Source: Candidatus Symbiothrix sp.
GTDB lineage: Bacteria; Bacteroidota; Bacteroidia; Bacteroidales; Azobacteroidaceae
DNA: 39,500 nucleotides
Assembly: GCA_031272095.1 (NCBI GenBank)
Contig: JAISUM010000090.1
Location: 1-39,500 of the forward strand
Reading direction: 5' to 3'
The stretch's first letter is position 1. Each line of letters opens with the position of its first letter. The notes beneath the pieces were generated by a model. The model was not told the origin of the DNA. It made no database searches and saw only the letters and a list, made by a program, of their open reading frames with translations. The position numbers and the translations under genes are program-made. Shown here one piece after another: positions 14,429 to 29,789 of the stretch.

Positions 14429-17400
14429 ATGAAAAATATTCGATACTGTATGATAGTCGTTGTCACCCTGTTTTTGGCAGGTTGGCAACAAGGTTTCGCC
14501 GAGCAAAATATCCGCTTTCAACGAATCAGCGAACATGACGGGTTGTCGCAAAACACGGTCAGATGTATTTTGCAGGATAGTCGTGGCTTTATCTGGCTGG
14601 GGACAATCAACGGACTGAACCGCTACAACGGCAAAGAATTTACGGTGATGCGCCCCGAAATCGGCAAAGCTGTTTCGCTCTCCGACAACCGCATCCGCAG
14701 TCTGATGGAAGACCGCTTCGGCTATATCTGGATTCGGACGGTGGATAATACCTACGATTGCTACAACCCTACGATTGAAAATTTTGTGGATTATGCACCC
14801 GCCGTCAAACGAAAAAATTTCGTCCGCGCCGTCGAATTGCCCAATGGCGATGTCTGGCTGTGGGGCGGCAATGTGGGTTGCTGTCGCGTTCGACATATCG
14901 ACAAACAACTGCAATCGACCTGTTTCAACGAAAAAGATTTCGGCGTTTCGACTATCTATCAAATTATGGCAGACACGAATGGGCAAGTCTATATCCTGAC
15001 GGCGAATGGCGTCTGGCAAATCGACGCCGATGGACGCCTCGAACCGTTTTGCTCCGAAACGTTCATGCGCATCCACGAGTTTGACGGACAAATTTTTCTG
15101 ATCAACAACCGGCAAATACTGACTTACAGTCTGACTGACCGACAATTCGGCGACACGATCTCCTACACGGTCGCCCCCGACGATATGCACGTCAGCGCAA
15201 TGTCGAAAGATGGGATTATTTTGATAGAAACGCCGAGTGATGTGCTGGTTTTCGACGCCCGAAAAAAACATTTTATCGCCTCCGCCGCTGTTTTTCATGA
15301 AAAGATTCCCAATGCCAATTTTTATGCCGACAACAAGGGAAATATCTGGATCTACAACCTCACAGGCGCCATTTGGCGGCATATTGCGGACACGCAATTC
15401 GAGAAAATCACGCTGATGCCGCCCGCCGTAGTGTCGCTCATCGACGCCGAGCGTTACGAGATTTGCCACGATGCGCAAGATATGATCTGGATCAGCACTT
15501 ACGGCGCCGGACTCTACGCTTTCAACGCGCAAACCGGAGAAATGGATCACTATACGACCGAGAACAGCGACCTGCCGACCAATTATCTGTTGAGCATTGC
15601 CGAAGACCGATCGGGCGAGATCTGGGCAGGCACCGAATTTTCGGGCGTCTGTAAAATCTCGCGTAATAATTACCCGGTACGACTGTTCGAACCTGCCGAA
15701 AACGATGCCCACTATCGCAGCAATTCCGTCAGAATGATTTATCAGGACAGTCGGGGGCGGTTCTGGATGGGAACACGCAGCGGCTATCTCTATGTCTATG
15801 ATGCGGCACTGCAACTATTGAAATTGCACCGCATCGCAGCAGGTTTGCCGTTCTGTGCCATAGAAGACAAAAACGGCAATATATGGATAGGTACACGCGG
15901 CAATAAACTGATGGTTTTTGCACCTTCGGCAGACCGCATTGTCCGCTCCTGCGATATTCAGCACACTTTCGATTTGACGATTGACCGCGAAAACCGCATC
16001 TGGGTGGCGTCTTTCGGATCGGGCTTGTATTACGCCGATCTCGACCATCCCCAACTGCAATTTGTCAATATCAGCTTGGGGAATGCTTCCCGCGATATGG
16101 GGCGCGTCATTCTGCAAGACAGGGAAGGTTGGATCTGGCTCGGTACCAACGAAGGCGTCAATGTTTTTCAGCCCGACCGACTGATCGCCGATCCCCAAGC
16201 GTATATCAATTTTCATTTCGACATCAATGACAGCCATTCGCTCAACAACAACGAAGTCAAAGCCATTTACGAAGATTCGCAGGGGCGACTGTGGCTGGGG
16301 ACTACCGGCGGCGGACTGAACTTGCTGGTACGCGAAGATCCGCTTTCGCAGTCGTGGTTCAAACATTATACCGCCAAAAACGGCTTGTCGAACGAAGTCG
16401 TCCAAAGCATCTGCGAAGACCGCGAAGGCAATCTTTGGCTGACCACCGAAGGCGAAACGGGAATCTCGAAATTTAACCCGACAACCGAACTGTTTGAAAA
16501 TTTCAACTTTACCGGCGGCAAACAAAGCAATCTGTTCAACGAGTCGGCAGGTTGGCAAACCGACGACGGCAAATTGATGTTCGGCAGCTCGGCAGGCGTG
16601 TATGTTTTTGAGCCGGAAAGCATCAAATATGACGCTTATGCGCCGCCTGTCGTGATCACCGGCTTGAAAATCAACGGCGCTGACGTCCGCCCTTTGGAAA
16701 ACCGCTCGCCGCTCGTCGAAAGCATCAGCCTGACAAAAACGATTAGACTGCCATACGGACAAAATTCGTTCAACATCGAATTTGCCATGCTGAATTTCCA
16801 ATCTCCGGATTTCAACCAATATGCCTATTATTTAGAGGGTTACGAAAAAGAATGGAACCCGATCAGTCGCTACAATGTTGCCGCTTACCGCAACCTGCCC
16901 GCCGGTGATTATCGTTTCCGCGTGAAAGGCAGCAATGCTTTCGGTGTTTGGACAACACAGGATACTTGCTTGGAAATCACGATTTTGCCGCCATTCTGGA
17001 AATCGGCTTGGGCATACCTGATCTATCTCCTGATCGGCGCAGGCGGCATTTGGTTTGCCGTCGGAATCATCCTGCACATCAACCGTTTGAACTTAGCAGT
17101 CAAGGTCGAAAAACAGCTGACCGACTATAAACTGCGCTTTTTCACCAATATCTCGCACGAGTTTCGTACCCCGCTCACCATCATTCGTGGCACTATCGAA
17201 AATCTGACTGCCTTCGACAATTTGCCGCCCGAACATGCCAAGTCGATCCGACTGCTGAACAAGAGTTCCAACCGACTGCTGCGGCTGATAGATCAGCTGC
17301 TCGATTTCCGAAAACTGCAAAACAAAGGCTTGGAACTGAAAGTGGAACGCACCGAAGCTGTGAGCTTTTTCTACGACATCTTTTTGGTTTTCAGAGAAGT

Positions 17401-18634
17401 AGCCGAGAAAAAGAATATCCGCCTGCTGTTTGAACACAACCTGCCGCGATACGATATGCTGTTAGACCGGAATAAATTCGACAAAATTACTTACAATCTG
17501 CTCTCGAATGCGCTCAAACATACACCGGAAGGCGGAGTGATATTGATGAAAATTCATTTTTCGGAGGTAAATAATCGTATGACTTTGAGTGTCGCCGACA
17601 GTGGCGCCGGCGTGCCGAAAGACCGGCAAAACGCACTTTTTGTCCGTTTTGCGCAAATCGACGACCGGATTGGCGGCACCGGCGTAGGCTTGCACCTGAC
17701 CGCTGAAATGGCTGCCGTCCACAAGGGGACGGTCGAATATTCCGACGCCGAAACCGGAGGAGCCTGTTTTAGCGTGTCCGTCCCTTTGGCAGACGCCAAC
17801 TATTCGCCCGACGAGATTGTCCGTTCGCAGCCGCTTGCGACCAAATCGCCGGAGATGATCACGGTCGATGGACGGTTCAAAAATTACCGCATCTTGGTGA
17901 TAGAAGACGAAGACGACGTGCGCGAATTTATTGTCGGTCAGTTGGAAAAATATTTCAGCATTATTGCCGCCAAAAACGGGCGAGAAGGCTTGGAAACGGC
18001 GATTGCCGTACAACCCAACCTGATTGTCTGCGACGTGATGATGCCCGAAATGGACGGTTTTGAATTTACGCGCCGCCTGAAAACCGATTTCCAATCGAGC
18101 CATATTCCGGTCATCCTGCTGACGGCTCATTCGTCCGAAGAAGACCGTTTGGAAGGGATTCAGGCAGGCGCCGACTCGTATATCACCAAGCCTTTCAGCG
18201 TGCAATATCTGCTGACACGCATCGTCAATCTGATTGAAAACCGCGAAACCCTGCGGCAAAAATTCGCACAGGAACCCCGACAAAGCTTGCCAATGAATGC
18301 TTTCACCGACAAAGACGCCGATTTTCTGCGCAAAGCAGACGCCGTCATCGAACGCCAACTCGAAAACATTCATTTTTCGGTCGATGATTTTGCGCAAACC
18401 ATGAAAATGGGACGCACCACTTTCTACAAAAAAATCAAAGGCTTGACCGGCTATACGCCCAACGATTATATGATGATTCTCCGTATGAAACGTGCCGCCG
18501 ACCTCCTCAATACTACCGACCTCAATATCTCCGAAGTCGCCTACAAAGTCGGTTTCGACGACCGCCTCTATTTCAGCAAATGTTTCAAAAAACAGTTTGG
18601 CGTGCCACCCAAAGCGTATAAAAAGAGTGGTTAG
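14429..18634 (+). CDS. Hybrid two-component system sensor/regulator (HTCS), second copy, divergent
   Basis: Propeller repeats (VRCILQDSRGFIWLGTINGLNRYNG), FTNISHEFRTPLTII, GTGVGLHLTAEMAAVHKG, IVCDVMMPEMDGFEF, ISEVAYKVGFDDRLYFSKCFKKQFGVPPKAY. Confidence 0.95.
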   Translation: MKNIRYCMIVVVTLFLAGWQQGFAEQNIRFQRISEHDGLSQNTVRCILQDSRGFIWLGTINGLNRYNGKEFTVMRPEIGKAVSLSDNRIRSLMEDRFGYIWIRTVDNTYDCYNPTIENFVDYAPAVKRKNFVRAVELPNGDVWLWGGNVGCCRVRHIDKQLQSTCFNEKDFGVSTIYQIMADTNGQVYILTANGVWQIDADGRLEPFCSETFMRIHEFDGQIFLINNRQILTYSLTDRQFGDTISYTVAPDDMHVSAMSKDGIILIETPSDVLVFDARKKHFIASAAVFHEKIPNANFYADNKGNIWIYNLTGAIWRHIADTQFEKITLMPPAVVSLIDAERYEICHDAQDMIWISTYGAGLYAFNAQTGEMDHYTTENSDLPTNYLLSIAEDRSGEIWAGTEFSGVCKISRNNYPVRLFEPAENDAHYRSNSVRMIYQDSRGRFWMGTRSGYLYVYDAALQLLKLHRIAAGLPFCAIEDKNGNIWIGTRGNKLMVFAPSADRIVRSCDIQHTFDLTIDRENRIWVASFGSGLYYADLDHPQLQFVNISLGNASRDMGRVILQDREGWIWLGTNEGVNVFQPDRLIADPQAYINFHFDINDSHSLNNNEVKAIYEDSQGRLWLGTTGGGLNLLVREDPLSQSWFKHYTAKNGLSNEVVQSICEDREGNLWLTTEGETGISKFNPTTELFENFNFTGGKQSNLFNESAGWQTDDGKLMFGSSAGVYVFEPESIKYDAYAPPVVITGLKINGADVRPLENRSPLVESISLTKTIRLPYGQNSFNIEFAMLNFQSPDFNQYAYYLEGYEKEWNPISRYNVAAYRNLPAGDYRFRVKGSNAFGVWTTQDTCLEITILPPFWKSAWAYLIYLLIGAGGIWFAVGIILHINRLNLAVKVEKQLTDYKLRFFTNISHEFRTPLTIIRGTIENLTAFDNLPPEHAKSIRLLNKSSNRLLRLIDQLLDFRKLQNKGLELKVERTEAVSFFYDIFLVFREVAEKKNIRLLFEHNLPRYDMLLDRNKFDKITYNLLSNALKHTPEGGVILMKIHFSEVNNRMTLSVADSGAGVPKDRQNALFVRFAQIDDRIGGTGVGLHLTAEMAAVHKGTVEYSDAETGGACFSVSVPLADANYSPDEIVRSQPLATKSPEMITVDGRFKNYRILVIEDEDDVREFIVGQLEKYFSIIAAKNGREGLETAIAVQPNLIVCDVMMPEMDGFEFTRRLKTDFQSSHIPVILLTAHSSEEDRLEGIQAGADSYITKPFSVQYLLTRIVNLIENRETLRQKFAQEPRQSLPMNAFTDKDADFLRKADAVIERQLENIHFSVDDFAQTMKMGRTTFYKKIKGLTGYTPNDYMMILRMKRAADLLNTTDLNISEVAYKVGFDDRLYFSKCFKKQFGVPPKAYKKSG

Positions 18635-21374: not shown

Positions 21375-22433
21375 TCAATCGTTCAGCGCCGAATCGTCTT
21401 TGGTAAGATCTAATTTTTCATTATCGGAGCCCCGTTCAAAATATTGTTTTTTGAGCGGGTTTCTGCGAATATAGGCATTGGTTTGACGATTGTGATAGAT
21501 GTCCACCGCCATGTAGATTGCATTGCGGAGCGAATCGGGCGGCGTAGCGTTTTTTCCGGCTTGTTCAAAGGTAGAATAAAAGTTGGGCGACGCGACGATA
21601 TGGGGTATGCCGCCGATATACAGCGAGTTTTCTTCTTTGGCAAGGGTATGAAAAATCGTTTTCCCCTGATCTTGGCACAGCGCCAAAATAGCGTCGAATT
21701 TTTTATATTCTTCGGACGCAAAAAACGTTTCGAGGTCGTAAACGCCAAAGCACTGCACGCCTTTGTCGCTTGCTGCTCTGATTGCCGGAACGATGATTTC
21801 GTGCTCTTCTTTTCCTGCCGGAGTGTTCAACGCTAAAACGGCGATGCGTGGATTCAGCACCATGAAATCGTTGGTCAAACCGGCATGCAACGCTATCAGT
21901 TTTGCCGTTATCGACTGTTGTGTCATTGCGGCAGACGCATCGGAACTGTTCATCGCAGTGGTTGCAATGGCGATCCGCAAAGTGTCATTCACCCAGATCT
22001 GAAAGCCTTCTTGCGGGGTGTTGAGCAGCGGGTGCATCAGCAAAACGGGGTCGATAGATGTCGGAGCGATCACCAAAGCGTCTATCAGATTGTTTTGCAG
22101 ATCCTCCACAGCGCGTAGCAACGCCATATCTGCATAGCGGGCGCTTTCGGGCGTCGCTTTGCCAATCTCTACCCGAATTTCCAACTGCGTAACATTGATG
22201 ACATTGACACGCTTGACGTCGGCATCTTCTACCTTCGCTATGTTGTTGATATTCAAGGGCGGTACCTCTATCGCTTTGCGGTGATATGCCAGCACTTTGG
22301 ACGAACCATAGACGATCGGCGTACAGATTTCCAAGAGATGCGCGTCGTTCAGCGTTTTCAGTATCAGTTCGGAGGCGATGCCATTGGGATTGCCGTGCGC
22401 GATACCTATTTTGATTAATTTATGCTCGTCCAT
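21375..22433 (-). CDS. pdxA: PdxA-family (4-hydroxythreonine-4-phosphate dehydrogenase-like) protein with divergent active site
   Basis: GIAHGNPNGIASELILKTL...CTPIVYGSSKVLAYHRKAI...ALVIAPTSIDP...PRIAVLALNTPAG...EEHEIIVPAI...FDAILALCQDQGKT...SPNFYSTFEQAGK. Start placed at MDEHKLIKIG (22433), 4 bp after the gyrB stop, rather than at 22484. Confidence 0.75.
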   Translation of the reverse strand: MDEHKLIKIGIAHGNPNGIASELILKTLNDAHLLEICTPIVYGSSKVLAYHRKAIEVPPLNINNIAKVEDADVKRVNVINVTQLEIRVEIGKATPESARYADMALLRAVEDLQNNLIDALVIAPTSIDPVLLMHPLLNTPQEGFQIWVNDTLRIAIATTAMNSSDASAAMTQQSITAKLIALHAGLTNDFMVLNPRIAVLALNTPAGKEEHEIIVPAIRAASDKGVQCFGVYDLETFFASEEYKKFDAILALCQDQGKTIFHTLAKEENSLYIGGIPHIVASPNFYSTFEQAGKNATPPDSLRNAIYMAVDIYHNRQTNAYIRRNPLKKQYFERGSDNEKLDLTKDDSALND

Positions 22434-22437
22434 TGCA

Positions 22438-24402
<1,965 letters not shown>

Positions 24403-24593: not shown

Positions 24594-27500
24594 ATGAATC
24601 TAATTATCAAAGAAAAACATGGATTCGCAAGCCTCATCGCAAAGTGCCTACTCACTGCGATTTTCGCTTGTTGTGTGATGGAAGTATCGGCGGCAACGAC
24701 CGTAACCGGTCGTGTTACCGATGTTTCGGGTGAGCCTCTCATAGGCGTAACTGTCTCTATTAGAGGCGCTTACGTGGGTGGGGCAGCAGTTACTAATTTC
24801 GACGGCAATTATTCTGTCTCTGTCCCCGACGGAAATGCTGTATTGGTCTTTGCTTATCTTGGGTTTTCTACTCAAGAGATTACGGTCGGTAATCAAGCAG
24901 TCATTAACGTAATTTTAAAAGAAGACGCCAAAGCGCTCGAAGAAGTGGTGGTTGTCGGCTATGGTACGCAGAAGAAAGTCAATTTGACCGGTTCTGTGGA
25001 GCAAATCAATTTTGCAGACCAAGCCATGACGCGACCTATCACAACGGTTTCAAGCGCCTTGTCGGGATTGCTTTCCGGTGTGTCGGTAAGGCAAACCAGT
25101 GGTGAACCGGGTTCGGATGGCGCAAGCATCCTGATTCGCGGTCAAGGTACGATGAACGACGCCTCTCCCCTGATTATCATCGATGGGATCGAAGGCTCAA
25201 TGGATGCGGTCAATCCGCAGGACATTGCCACCATCACCACGCTGAAAGATGCGGCATCCTGCGCCATTTACGGTGTGCGTGGCGCTAACGGTGTCATTTT
25301 GGTAACGACCAAAAAAGGACAACCGGGTAAAGTCCATCTGAACTACTCCGGCGTTTTTTCGTGGAACCGTCCGAGCAACCTGATTGATCTGGTTTCGGAC
25401 TATGCTACCTACATGGAGTTGATGAACGAAGGCTACAACAATGTAGGGCTGGCTGACAATTTTCCGCAGGCAACCATTGATCTGTGGCGCGAAAAAAGCA
25501 AAAATCCCAATGCGACAGACACACCATCGGGCGTTCCCAACTACGTTGCCTATCCCAACACCAAATGGGCAGACGAATTTTATCACGGCGATGTGATGCA
25601 AGACCACAACCTTTCGCTGTCGGGAGCTGCCGACAATGTGCGTTACCTGTTGTCGATCGGATTTTTAGACAATCCGGGCTTGGTCGAAAACACAGGGATC
25701 AAACGCTATTCGTTGCGGTCGAACCTCGAATCGGACGTTACCAAATGGCTGACGGTCGGTTTGAATTTATTCGGTTCGCAACGGGATAAAGATGTGGGAC
25801 GTTTCAGCACCGCCAACAATTACCTGAGACAAACCACGCCGGGCGTCTATCCGCGTTGGAAAGGTATCGCAGGCGGTCCGGAAGTTGCCGAAGAAAGTGC
25901 AATGGCAAACAGCCTCTACACTTTCCTCAATGCCAATGACGGCAGAAACACAAGGACGCAATACAGCGCAACGATTTTTTCCCGTGCCAAAATTTGGAAA
26001 GGACTGTCTTGGGATTTCAATTATAACTATTCCAAACAGGTCAACGAGAACAAGCAATGGAGCAATGCGCAAAATGCCCGCAAAATGCGATTCAGCGACG
26101 GCTATCTGCTCTCGCAGGCAACTTCGTTGAGCGAGATGACCTCCGAATTTACGATGGCAGGCAACAAAGCTTACACCCTGCAAAACCTGTTGCGCTATAA
26201 TACCGTTATCAACAAAGATCATGATTTGAACGCTTTGCTTGGGTATGAAGAAACCGCTTATTACGAATACAGCTATTATGCCAGCAAAAAAGGGTTTACG
26301 GCAGAAAATTTGAATGTGCCGGACGCAGTTTTGAACAACGAAAACAAGATTACGGGAACGGCGCTTGACAGGGCTTCACGTTCCATTTTCGGACGTATCA
26401 ATTATGCCTATCAAAACAAATATTTGGCAGAATTTGACCTGCGTCGCGATTATTCGTCACGCTTTGCAGCCGACTATCGCGGGGGGACTTTCCCTTCGGC
26501 GTCTTTGGGCTGGCGAGTGATGGAAGAATCGTTTATGGACAATCTCCGCGACAAGATCGACAATCTGAAATTACGCTTGTCATACGGACAACTCGGGAAT
26601 CAAGGTGGTAGCGGATTGGGAGAATATGACTATCAATCGCTTTACGGATCAGCCAATTATCCTATCGGCGACGCGGTAGCCACCGGTTTCAAATCGGCGT
26701 TATGGTCTAACTCTTCATTGTCGTGGGAAACCACCAATATCACCAATGTGGGTATTGACATCGCCGTCTTGCAAAATCGTTTGAATGCGACCATCGAATA
26801 TTACGACAAGTTTGTGGATGGGATTCTCTATTATCCGCCCATTCCGGAAATGGCGGCAGACGCCTCTGCTCCCAGAATGAATTTAGCGCAGGTAGATACC
26901 AAAGGGCTTGATTTTTCTATCAACTGGAACGACAAAATCGGTAATGTTTACTATTCGGTAAGCGGCAATTTCGGCTACAATCACAACCGTATCGTCAAAT
27001 ACAAAGGCGCTTTCACTGCCGGTTGGGTAGATAATCCCGACGGCACCAGAACATGGACGACCAATTTTGCCGATGTGAATTATGGGGACGTAAATTCGGG
27101 TTATGGCGTCGAAGGACATCCTATCGGAACTTATTATTTAAGAACGGTTTATCATGGCGACGGCACTTATTTCAACGCCGACGGTACGCCCAATCCCAAT
27201 GGCGGTCCGAAAGACGGTATGATTCGCACCGAAGCCGATATGCAATGGCTGACCGCGATGATGGCAGCTGCCGACGGTTCGGGGAAAGACCTCTATACTT
27301 TCAAGCCGAATGATGCGGCAGCTCCCTCGCAAACCAAATTGTGGTATGGCGACTTGATTTATGCCGACAACAATGGCGATGGTATTTTCGGCGACGACAA
27401 CGACCGGAAATTTCATGGCTCGCGTGTCCCGAAATACAACTACGGTTTGCAAGCCTCCGCTGCATGGAAAGGCGTTGACTTTTCGATGAACTGGGCAGGC

Positions 27501-27935
27501 GCAGCAGGTTTTCAACTCTATTGGGCGCCCGAAACCGGATATAACTCTACCGGTGTGCGTCTGGGGTTAGCAATTCCGACGGCAATCGCCAACGATCACT
27601 ATTACTACGACCCCGCTGATCCGAACAATCCGAAAACCAATATCAATGGCAAATATTCGCGTTTGGTGGCTGCCGAAAGCGGTTATCCCGCACAATACGC
27701 CAGCGACTACTATTTATTTAAAGGCGATTATCTGAAATTGAAAAATTTGACGATTGGCTACACGCTCCCGCAACAGCTGACGCGGAAAATCTCTCTCGAT
27801 AAAGTCAGAGTGTTTGCCACCGGCGAAAACTTGCTGACGATTACCGCCTTCCCCGGATTAGACCCCGAAATGGGTTACAGCACAGGTTATACATCCATGA
27901 GACAGTTTGCTCTGGGTATCAATGTTTCATTTTAA
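24594..27935 (+). CDS. SusC/RagA family TonB-linked outer membrane protein
   Basis: VTGRVTDVSGEPLIGVTVSIRG, ALEEVVVVGYGTQKKVNLTGSV, LIRGQGTMNDASPLIIIDGIEG, DAASCAIYGVRGANGVILVTTKKG. Confidence 0.95.
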   Translation: MNLIIKEKHGFASLIAKCLLTAIFACCVMEVSAATTVTGRVTDVSGEPLIGVTVSIRGAYVGGAAVTNFDGNYSVSVPDGNAVLVFAYLGFSTQEITVGNQAVINVILKEDAKALEEVVVVGYGTQKKVNLTGSVEQINFADQAMTRPITTVSSALSGLLSGVSVRQTSGEPGSDGASILIRGQGTMNDASPLIIIDGIEGSMDAVNPQDIATITTLKDAASCAIYGVRGANGVILVTTKKGQPGKVHLNYSGVFSWNRPSNLIDLVSDYATYMELMNEGYNNVGLADNFPQATIDLWREKSKNPNATDTPSGVPNYVAYPNTKWADEFYHGDVMQDHNLSLSGAADNVRYLLSIGFLDNPGLVENTGIKRYSLRSNLESDVTKWLTVGLNLFGSQRDKDVGRFSTANNYLRQTTPGVYPRWKGIAGGPEVAEESAMANSLYTFLNANDGRNTRTQYSATIFSRAKIWKGLSWDFNYNYSKQVNENKQWSNAQNARKMRFSDGYLLSQATSLSEMTSEFTMAGNKAYTLQNLLRYNTVINKDHDLNALLGYEETAYYEYSYYASKKGFTAENLNVPDAVLNNENKITGTALDRASRSIFGRINYAYQNKYLAEFDLRRDYSSRFAADYRGGTFPSASLGWRVMEESFMDNLRDKIDNLKLRLSYGQLGNQGGSGLGEYDYQSLYGSANYPIGDAVATGFKSALWSNSSLSWETTNITNVGIDIAVLQNRLNATIEYYDKFVDGILYYPPIPEMAADASAPRMNLAQVDTKGLDFSINWNDKIGNVYYSVSGNFGYNHNRIVKYKGAFTAGWVDNPDGTRTWTTNFADVNYGDVNSGYGVEGHPIGTYYLRTVYHGDGTYFNADGTPNPNGGPKDGMIRTEADMQWLTAMMAAADGSGKDLYTFKPNDAAAPSQTKLWYGDLIYADNNGDGIFGDDNDRKFHGSRVPKYNYGLQASAAWKGVDFSMNWAGAAGFQLYWAPETGYNSTGVRLGLAIPTAIANDHYYYDPADPNNPKTNINGKYSRLVAAESGYPAQYASDYYLFKGDYLKLKNLTIGYTLPQQLTRKISLDKVRVFATGENLLTITAFPGLDPEMGYSTGYTSMRQFALGINVSF

Positions 27936-27947
27936 AAATATACAGAT

Positions 27948-29789
27948 ATGAAAAACTTAAAATATTTGATTTTGTTATGCGTATCCGCAGCAGGATTTTT
28001 TATGCTGTCTTGCAACGAATTGGATACGGTTCCTTACGAACAATTGGCTTCGGGTTCGATGTACACCGATGAGGCAACGACAGATGCCGGTGTAATAGGC
28101 GTATATAATGTTTTGAGGCAAGAATATGTTGCCGGAGGATCCGGCATAGGGCTTGCTTTGATAGATTCGTGGGGCGTCAATTCCGATAGCCGCGACGCTT
28201 CGGATGTGCCGCTGAATACGGCGAAAGCTTCTAATACGACCGGCACTTTCCAAAATTATTGGAAACAGCACTATTACGGCGTTTTTCGTGCAAATACGGC
28301 GATAGCATCTATTCCGAAATCGCCGGTATCCGACGCTAAAAAAGCGCGTCTGATAGCCGAATGTCGTTTCCTTCGCGCCTATTTCTATTACAGGCTGAAT
28401 ATGGTCTTCAAAGGCGTGCCTTATTACGAAGGAATTACGGAAATTTCGGAAATGACCAAAGGACGTGAAACAGAAGCGTTTATCTGGGATAAAATTATCG
28501 AAGACCTGACGGCATGCGCCGCCGAAACCAATCTGCCTGATCGCTACGATGCGGGCGACGGTAATTTTGGACGCATCACGCAAGGCGCCGTGCAGGCATT
28601 GCTGGGCAAAGTCTATTTGTGGCGTCAGGAATACGACAAAGCAGAAACTGCCTTCAAAGCGCTGGAAGCGATGGGCTATGAACTCTTTGCAGGTGCAGGC
28701 GCCGACAGCTATCGTCAGCTCTTCAAAGAAGCCAACGAACAGAGCAAAGAAGCTGTCTTCGCACTTCAATGTGTCGGTCTGTCGGGACAAGGTCAAGCGA
28801 TGAGTTTCCGTTACGGCGGACGCACTTCTTACGGATCGTGTTGGAATACCATTCTTCCGAATACGGATTTTGTGGACAGCTACGAAAACATAGACGGCAG
28901 CCAATTCAACTGGGACGATATTATACCCGGTTATACGGCGAAAACTCCGGCAGAACGCAAAGTGTATTTCTATCGCGACAAAGACGCTGTAGAACCTTTC
29001 AAAGATGCCAGTGGAAAATCGGCATACGATATATTAGTGCAGGCTGAAATCGATTATCCGACGGAATATCTGCCTACAGGCAACGAAGCGCGTATCAAAT
29101 CGGCGTATGAAAATCGCGACCCGCGTCTGAAAATGACCATCATCACGCCTTATTCCACTTATTTGGGAATAGGCGGTGGCGTCGATCAAACCCTTACTTT
29201 GCGCTGGCCCTGCTGGAATTCCGACGCCGTCGAACCTTTCGATATTCGTACCGATACGCCGGGTCGTTTCCACTATCTTTATCGCAAATTTGTAGCCGAA
29301 GGGAATTCCGAAATTCCTAATCGCGAATATTCTCCCATCGACTTGCCGATCATCCGCTATGCCGACGTGCTGTTAAACTTGGCGGAAGCCTTGAACGAAC
29401 AGGGCGCCGCTAATCTGAACGAAGCCGTTGCTGCCGTCAATAAAGTGCGGAGCCGTGCCGGAGCAGCCTTGTTGCAGACGACCGACGCTACCAAACCAAC
29501 TTATGTCCCCGACCAAAACAATCTGCGGGAACGAATTCGCAACGAGCGACGTTGGGAATTTGCGGGCGAAGGCGTGAATTATTTCGACGAAATTCGTTGG
29601 AGAACGCTTGCCACAAGCAAATTCAAGACAGACGCTTCGGGCGCCGCTGTTTCCGGCAATTTGGAAATTTGGGGAACGCCTTGGTACACTACCGAATGGG
29701 GTGGCGACAAGTATTATACTTGGGCTATTCCGAATGCCGAAAGGCAGAAAATAAAAGCGCTCACCCAAAACGAAGGATGGGAAAATTAA
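27948..29789 (+). CDS. SusD/RagB family nutrient-binding outer membrane lipoprotein
   Basis: Lipoprotein signal ...FFMLSCNELDTVP; AECRFLRAYFYYRLNMVFKGVPY; LPIIRYADVLLNLAEALNE; VNKVRSRAG; IRNERRWEFAGEGVNYFDEIRW. Confidence 0.95.
   Translation: MKNLKYLILLCVSAAGFFMLSCNELDTVPYEQLASGSMYTDEATTDAGVIGVYNVLRQEYVAGGSGIGLALIDSWGVNSDSRDASDVPLNTAKASNTTGTFQNYWKQHYYGVFRANTAIASIPKSPVSDAKKARLIAECRFLRAYFYYRLNMVFKGVPYYEGITEISEMTKGRETEAFIWDKIIEDLTACAAETNLPDRYDAGDGNFGRITQGAVQALLGKVYLWRQEYDKAETAFKALEAMGYELFAGAGADSYRQLFKEANEQSKEAVFALQCVGLSGQGQAMSFRYGGRTSYGSCWNTILPNTDFVDSYENIDGSQFNWDDIIPGYTAKTPAERKVYFYRDKDAVEPFKDASGKSAYDILVQAEIDYPTEYLPTGNEARIKSAYENRDPRLKMTIITPYSTYLGIGGGVDQTLTLRWPCWNSDAVEPFDIRTDTPGRFHYLYRKFVAEGNSEIPNREYSPIDLPIIRYADVLLNLAEALNEQGAANLNEAVAAVNKVRSRAGAALLQTTDATKPTYVPDQNNLRERIRNERRWEFAGEGVNYFDEIRWRTLATSKFKTDASGAAVSGNLEIWGTPWYTTEWGGDKYYTWAIPNAERQKIKALTQNEGWEN

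Follow-up and report, generated by a model that had tools for sequence, protein, structure and literature searches.

In Escherichia coli the 4-hydroxythreonine-4-phosphate dehydrogenase PdxA (PF04166, TIGR00557) holds its metal through three histidines, His166, His211 and His266. PdxJ is the next enzyme after PdxA in vitamin B6 synthesis, and PdxS is the core enzyme of the alternative B6 route. Pseudoenzymes are catalytically dead proteins that are kept as scaffolds or regulators.

Here we analyse a gene of Candidatus Symbiothrix sp. (Bacteroidales), found in a stretch of 39,500 nucleotides of contig JAISUM010000090.1 that we refer to as the window. Its product is like PdxA in full-length homology, predicted fold and (among its relatives) gene position; it is unlike the enzyme in that the metal histidines are missing, lysine, asparagine and arginine residues of the substrate site are changed, the GHT loop is deleted, pdxJ is absent and the score falls below the level set for functional equivalents. 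The fold family also holds D-threonate 4-phosphate dehydrogenase and terephthalate dihydrodiol dehydrogenase (6e85, 8zhy), but these are catalytic, whereas the window protein is without the histidine triad. With pseudoenzymes in general it shares the loss of catalytic residues from a fold under purifying selection; unlike them, the Bacteroidales case concerns the single orthologue and not a paralogue, and conversions that are repeated within one order, mostly in genomes lacking the rest of the route.

The original prediction for this gene, made from the DNA alone, offered a choice between a non-catalytic protein and an enzyme with new chemistry. That choice is broadly supported, but the gene is not the single, gyrB-linked oddity that it appeared to be: the change recurs across the order and gyrB is incidental. 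The best explanation, and one that we consider probable, has two parts. To judge from sequence, the window protein would be a true Bacteroidales PdxA orthologue that has lost its 4-hydroxythreonine-4-phosphate dehydrogenase activity; and Bacteroidales PdxA would have a second, catalysis-independent role – probably that of a binding protein – that outlives the loss of the B6 route.

An intact reading frame with the PdxA fold

The gene occupies positions 21375–22433 of the minus strand, from an ATG at 22433 to a stop that ends at 21375, and encodes 352 amino acids in an intact frame. The coordinates first given for it are correct; the strand, left unstated at the time, is minus by translation. 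The Pfam PdxA profile (PF04166) matches the protein with an E-value of 1.5e-51 and 176 bits (cut-off 27) over profile positions 1–286, that is, over the whole profile. Against the NCBIfam PdxA equivalog TIGR00557 it scores 146.4 bits, below the cut-off of 290.35. An AlphaFold2 model built with 48 related sequences shows an intact PdxA fold (pLDDT 89, pTM 0.87), and its best structural matches by Foldseek are PdxA crystal structures (TM ∼0.8), including those from Legionella (6xmy, E 4e-25) and E. coli (1ps6). Translation, profile and model agree with the earlier view of an intact frame with fold-level similarity to PdxA. No second PdxA homologue, and no canonical pdxA copy, was found in the window's genome (2.3 Mb, 87% complete).

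Loss of the active site

Alignment with E. coli K-12 PdxA confirms that all three metal-binding histidines are missing: Ala160 (21954–21956, minus strand) stands in place of His166, Pro205 (21819–21821, minus strand) in place of His211 and Gln254 (21672–21674, minus strand) in place of His266. The same alignment rules out histidines conserved at shifted positions. One element of the original prediction fails, namely the reading of GHTE to NTPQE as a change of ligand: the loop that carries GHTE (E. coli 128–137, with His136 and Thr137) is deleted throughout the genus, and the two strings do not form a true alignment pair. GHTE, which contains His136, is not a metal-ligand motif; the first ligand, His166, is found within E. 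coli TTHLPL, the counterpart of which in the window protein is TTAMNS. Residues K123, K274, N283, R292, H297 and T299, which are invariant in catalytic Bacteroidales PdxA, are all changed, and the former ligand positions drift, one of them being filled by A, S, K, D, R, N or Q within the genus alone. The pocket of the window protein may still bind NAD or a similar ligand, but not the metal and the substrate.

In several lineages that have lost the site independently, His266 is replaced by tyrosine (YHDQG to YYDQG). This is a one-base change, and possibly one that is structurally favoured too.

A protein that gained a new chemistry on the same fold after the loss of the B6 route – a metal-free dehydrogenase, a decarboxylase or a transferase – would account for a pocket that is partly retained (N209, Y265, D267 and Q268) and for the recurrence, in several lineages, of lysine at His166 and tyrosine at His266; the PdxA fold is, moreover, common to phosphotransacetylase-type enzymes. 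Nevertheless, we regard such an enzyme as unlikely: the old ligand positions are highly variable even among members of one genus, the GHT loop has been deleted, no new invariant catalytic set is found at the old site, and the same activity would have needed to arise in many lineages.

Selection on pdxA

Across pairs of genus members with measurable dS, the dN/dS of pdxA is 0.085–0.27, values inside or near the range that adjacent genes show in those pairs. For the window gene itself dS to the nearest relatives is saturated, and the case for selection rests there on the intact frame and an unchanged C-terminal tail. Neutral decay, named at the outset as the finding that would overturn a functional reading, is not borne out for the genus, given these ratios and a tail that is nearly frozen; a pseudogene in progress is ruled out there on the same grounds. 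By way of the genus relatives, the gene combines lost catalytic residues with purifying selection, a combination expected of a pseudoenzyme.

Could pdxA nevertheless be a relic on a slow path to loss, once B6 synthesis had been lost or replaced? The body of the protein evolves fast, and the copies in two reduced genomes are very divergent and tail-less. Set against this are dN/dS values at the level of neighbouring functional genes, long frames without internal stops throughout the genus, a tail that is the most conserved stretch of the protein, and the retention of pdxA by 44 of the 46 pdxJ-less genomes of the order. Slow decay is contradicted for the genus, where we hold it to be very unlikely, and may apply to endosymbionts. 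The two reduced genomes (∼1.1 Mb; G003, locus L032, and G023, locus L051) have PdxA open frames of 334 and 288 amino acids, respectively; the dN/dS of the pair is ∼0.42 and selection looks relaxed.

Vitamin B6 genes in the genus

We take the genus of the window's genome to be the Candidatus Azobacteroides lineage. A PdxA match is present in 36 of its 41 genomes (the window's included), and not one of these 36 orthologues has the full histidine triad. pdxJ was detected in none of the 41, several of which are 97–99% complete. In the window's own, 87% complete genome neither pdxJ nor a second canonical pdxA, both of which the original prediction proposed to look for, was found, and the DXP-dependent B6 route is, by its PdxJ marker, not detected. 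The suggestion that pdxS might be present holds for most of the genus – PdxS was found in 26 of the 40 genomes searched, including the two reduced ones – and not for the window's own incomplete genome, in which neither PdxS nor pdxJ was found. Seven further families also have PdxS among their genomes without pdxJ, and it was found above its cut-off in no pdxJ-positive genome searched; some lineages have neither and are presumably B6 auxotrophs. Within the same family, two genomes (G041 and G043) have both the triad and pdxJ, while G042 and G044–G047 have neither.

Four members of the genus (G004, G019, G020 and G026; loci L018, L023, L026 and L067) carry a second PdxA copy with an intact histidine triad. 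These copies form a separate clade, perhaps with a role in sugar-acid catabolism, and pdxJ is absent from these genomes too. We therefore rejected the idea that B6 synthesis is left to another, canonical copy: the window's genome has none, and the copies of these four members belong to the separate clade, in genomes that lack pdxJ.

It might be argued that the protein still makes the PdxA product, its metal site having been rearranged, and that the B6 route relies on a PdxJ that goes unrecognised. The intact fold would be in keeping with this, as would those pdxJ-less lineages that are also without PdxS; but the metal ligands, the substrate residues and the GHT loop are all gone, no genome of the genus has pdxJ, and PdxS makes the route unnecessary in most of them. 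We judge this reading to be highly improbable.

Recurrent loss across the Bacteroidales

The survey covered 392 Bacteroidales genomes that are at least 90% complete, with the window's own included as an exception. PdxA is present in 384 of the 392 and pdxJ in 346, and all but two of the 46 genomes without pdxJ retain PdxA. A tree was inferred by a quick maximum-likelihood method from aligned PdxA proteins, 60 with a lost site and 61 with an intact one; for pdxJ-positive genomes outside the alignment an intact site was assumed from high Pfam scores only. Of the 60 proteins with a lost site, 58 belong to genomes without pdxJ. The tree implies 10 changes between intact and lost site, at least eight of which are forced by strongly supported branches; the majority are losses, the count admitting a few changes in the opposite direction on the tree as drawn. 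In some pdxJ-less lineages (e.g., G150, G234 and G400) the triad is kept and other site residues are lost, a pattern expected of intermediate stages.

Among named genomes, the site is lost in Segatella albensis DSM 11370, Hallella seregens ATCC 51272 and several Prevotella, and pdxJ is absent from all eight named site-lost genomes that were tested. The triad and pdxJ occur together in B. fragilis, P. distasonis and Phocaeicola coprophilus. The rest of the phylum offers little contrast: of 218 genomes outside the Bacteroidales 212 have pdxA and 213 have pdxJ, the two co-occurring almost constantly, with one family (two genomes) lacking both.

The two site-lost proteins from genomes with pdxJ belong to a single genus (G364, locus L117, and G311, locus L119), in which PdxJ is accompanied by a PdxA without the metal site and there is no further PdxA copy; in the sister genome G248 pdxJ is lost. 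Since the site was lost here with pdxJ kept, events did not follow one order everywhere.

What is conserved: the N-terminal lobe and the C-terminal tail

Other parts of the protein persist. The N-terminal motif GIAHGNPNGIASE (residues 10–22; 22368–22406, minus strand), which reads GIxxGDxNGIGxE in relatives, is retained with or without the metal site, and its G14, N17 and E22 are invariant across 48 sequences. The segment YGSSKVLAYHRK (residues 42–53; 22275–22310, minus strand) is conserved in catalytic and non-catalytic Bacteroidales alike and is mostly absent from E. coli PdxA and from paralogues. In E. coli numbering, the residues kept in both classes of Bacteroidales PdxA are G12, N15, E20, K24, K41, K48, N71, D107, P120, D195, F196, A204, N209, G242, D259, Q268 and R328. 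Seven of these (N15, K41, K48, N71, D107, D195 and A204) are not shared by E. coli or by most paralogous PdxA copies, and are therefore unlikely to be required for dehydrogenase catalysis. The remaining conserved residues may in many cases serve to maintain the fold alone.

Conservation peaks in the C-terminal tail NPLKKQYFERGSDNEKLDLTKD (residues 325–346; 21396–21461, minus strand): this 22-amino-acid stretch ranks first of 332 by conservation within the genus. Between the window protein and other genus members mean identity is 92% in the tail and 44% in the body. In the genus pN is 0.084 in the tail versus 0.318 in the body, while pS is similar (0.82 versus 0.76), from which it follows that the constraint acts on the protein; a cause at the nucleotide level is ruled out, as silent sites vary freely. 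The second half of the tail is predicted to be disordered and has low confidence in the AlphaFold2 model. Conservation combined with predicted disorder is the typical pattern of a short binding motif, and suggests that the tail contains one. It was found in no other ORF of the fetched loci and in no PDB chain. Some site-lost lineages (e.g., G048) are without the tail, and in the reduced G003 and G023 it is eroded or missing.

Gene context

Four bases upstream of pdxA lies gyrB (22438–24396, minus strand; stop at 22438). The spacing is as originally described, but the link that it seemed to suggest falls away: gyrB adjoins pdxA in this genome only, and every other pdxA locus examined lacks it. 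We abandoned the idea of a functional tie to gyrase for this reason, and gyrB is probably not part of pdxA function. Elsewhere in the window (14429–18634 and 24594–29789) are a 1401-amino-acid hybrid two-component regulator and a SusC/SusD-like outer-membrane pair, as judged from sequence.

Upstream of pdxA, members of the genus usually have rlmN and a gene for a SurA-like prolyl isomerase. B. fragilis and Segatella share the arrangement rlmN, a DUF4837 lipoprotein gene, pdxA, (in Segatella) LPG_synthase_TM, a sigma-54 activator gene and lptE; in E. coli it is lptD-surA-pdxA-rsmA (NC_000913, 51609–57109). pdxA is therefore found near a SurA-type chaperone gene and an rRNA methyltransferase gene (rlmN or rsmA) in two distant phyla (L068, L033, L199, L220 and E. 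coli), and near an LPS-transport gene (lptE or lptD) in B. fragilis, Segatella and E. coli. We treat this shared company as a lead to the second role and not as evidence for it.

That the ORF is kept for its place in an operon (through translation coupling or transcript structure) and not for its protein is extremely unlikely: relatives do show a conserved gene order in which pdxA is flanked by rlmN and other genes, but the constraint is on amino acids with silent sites free, and the gene stays intact beside other neighbours in the window and in several relatives, relocated copies that largely contradict the idea.

A probable second, catalysis-independent role

Together the above analyses favour an older second role of PdxA over a new chemistry: one fold and one set of surface residues outlast losses that happened independently, and the former ligand positions drift to different letters. 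Such a role would already exist in the catalytic Bacteroidales PdxA; once the B6 route was lost or replaced, the active site would become dispensable and the protein would still be needed. Least certain is the mechanism, in what we take to be its most likely form: as a scaffold or binding protein, PdxA would receive a partner on its N-terminal lobe, at GDxNGIGxE and YGSxK....RK, and, in this family, also on its flexible C-terminal tail.

pdxA is listed among the essential genes of Porphyromonas gingivalis (PMC3547785), a result that is in keeping with a second role but does not separate the two roles and could simply reflect B6 synthesis. Our search of the open-access literature found no paper on a non-catalytic or moonlighting PdxA. 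Neither the fold nor the family is new. What we did not find described is that a single orthologue has turned, repeatedly, into a protein that is retained but apparently no longer catalytic.

A broader reading, to which we give about an even chance, is that Bacteroidales PdxA is bifunctional, combining B6 synthesis with a conserved catalysis-independent role that is possibly tied to its envelope and ribosome neighbours (the SurA-like chaperone, RlmN and LptE), and that loss or replacement of the B6 route has exposed this role repeatedly, including in the Prevotella group. If so, a protein that is nearly universal in the order (384 of 392 genomes) would have an undescribed role. As pdxA is annotated as a gene of B6 synthesis, predictions of B6 synthesis in Bacteroidales that are based on it would be wrong wherever copies act otherwise. 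Evolution would already have run the separation-of-function experiment repeatedly, which makes the proposal directly testable in genetically tractable Bacteroides.
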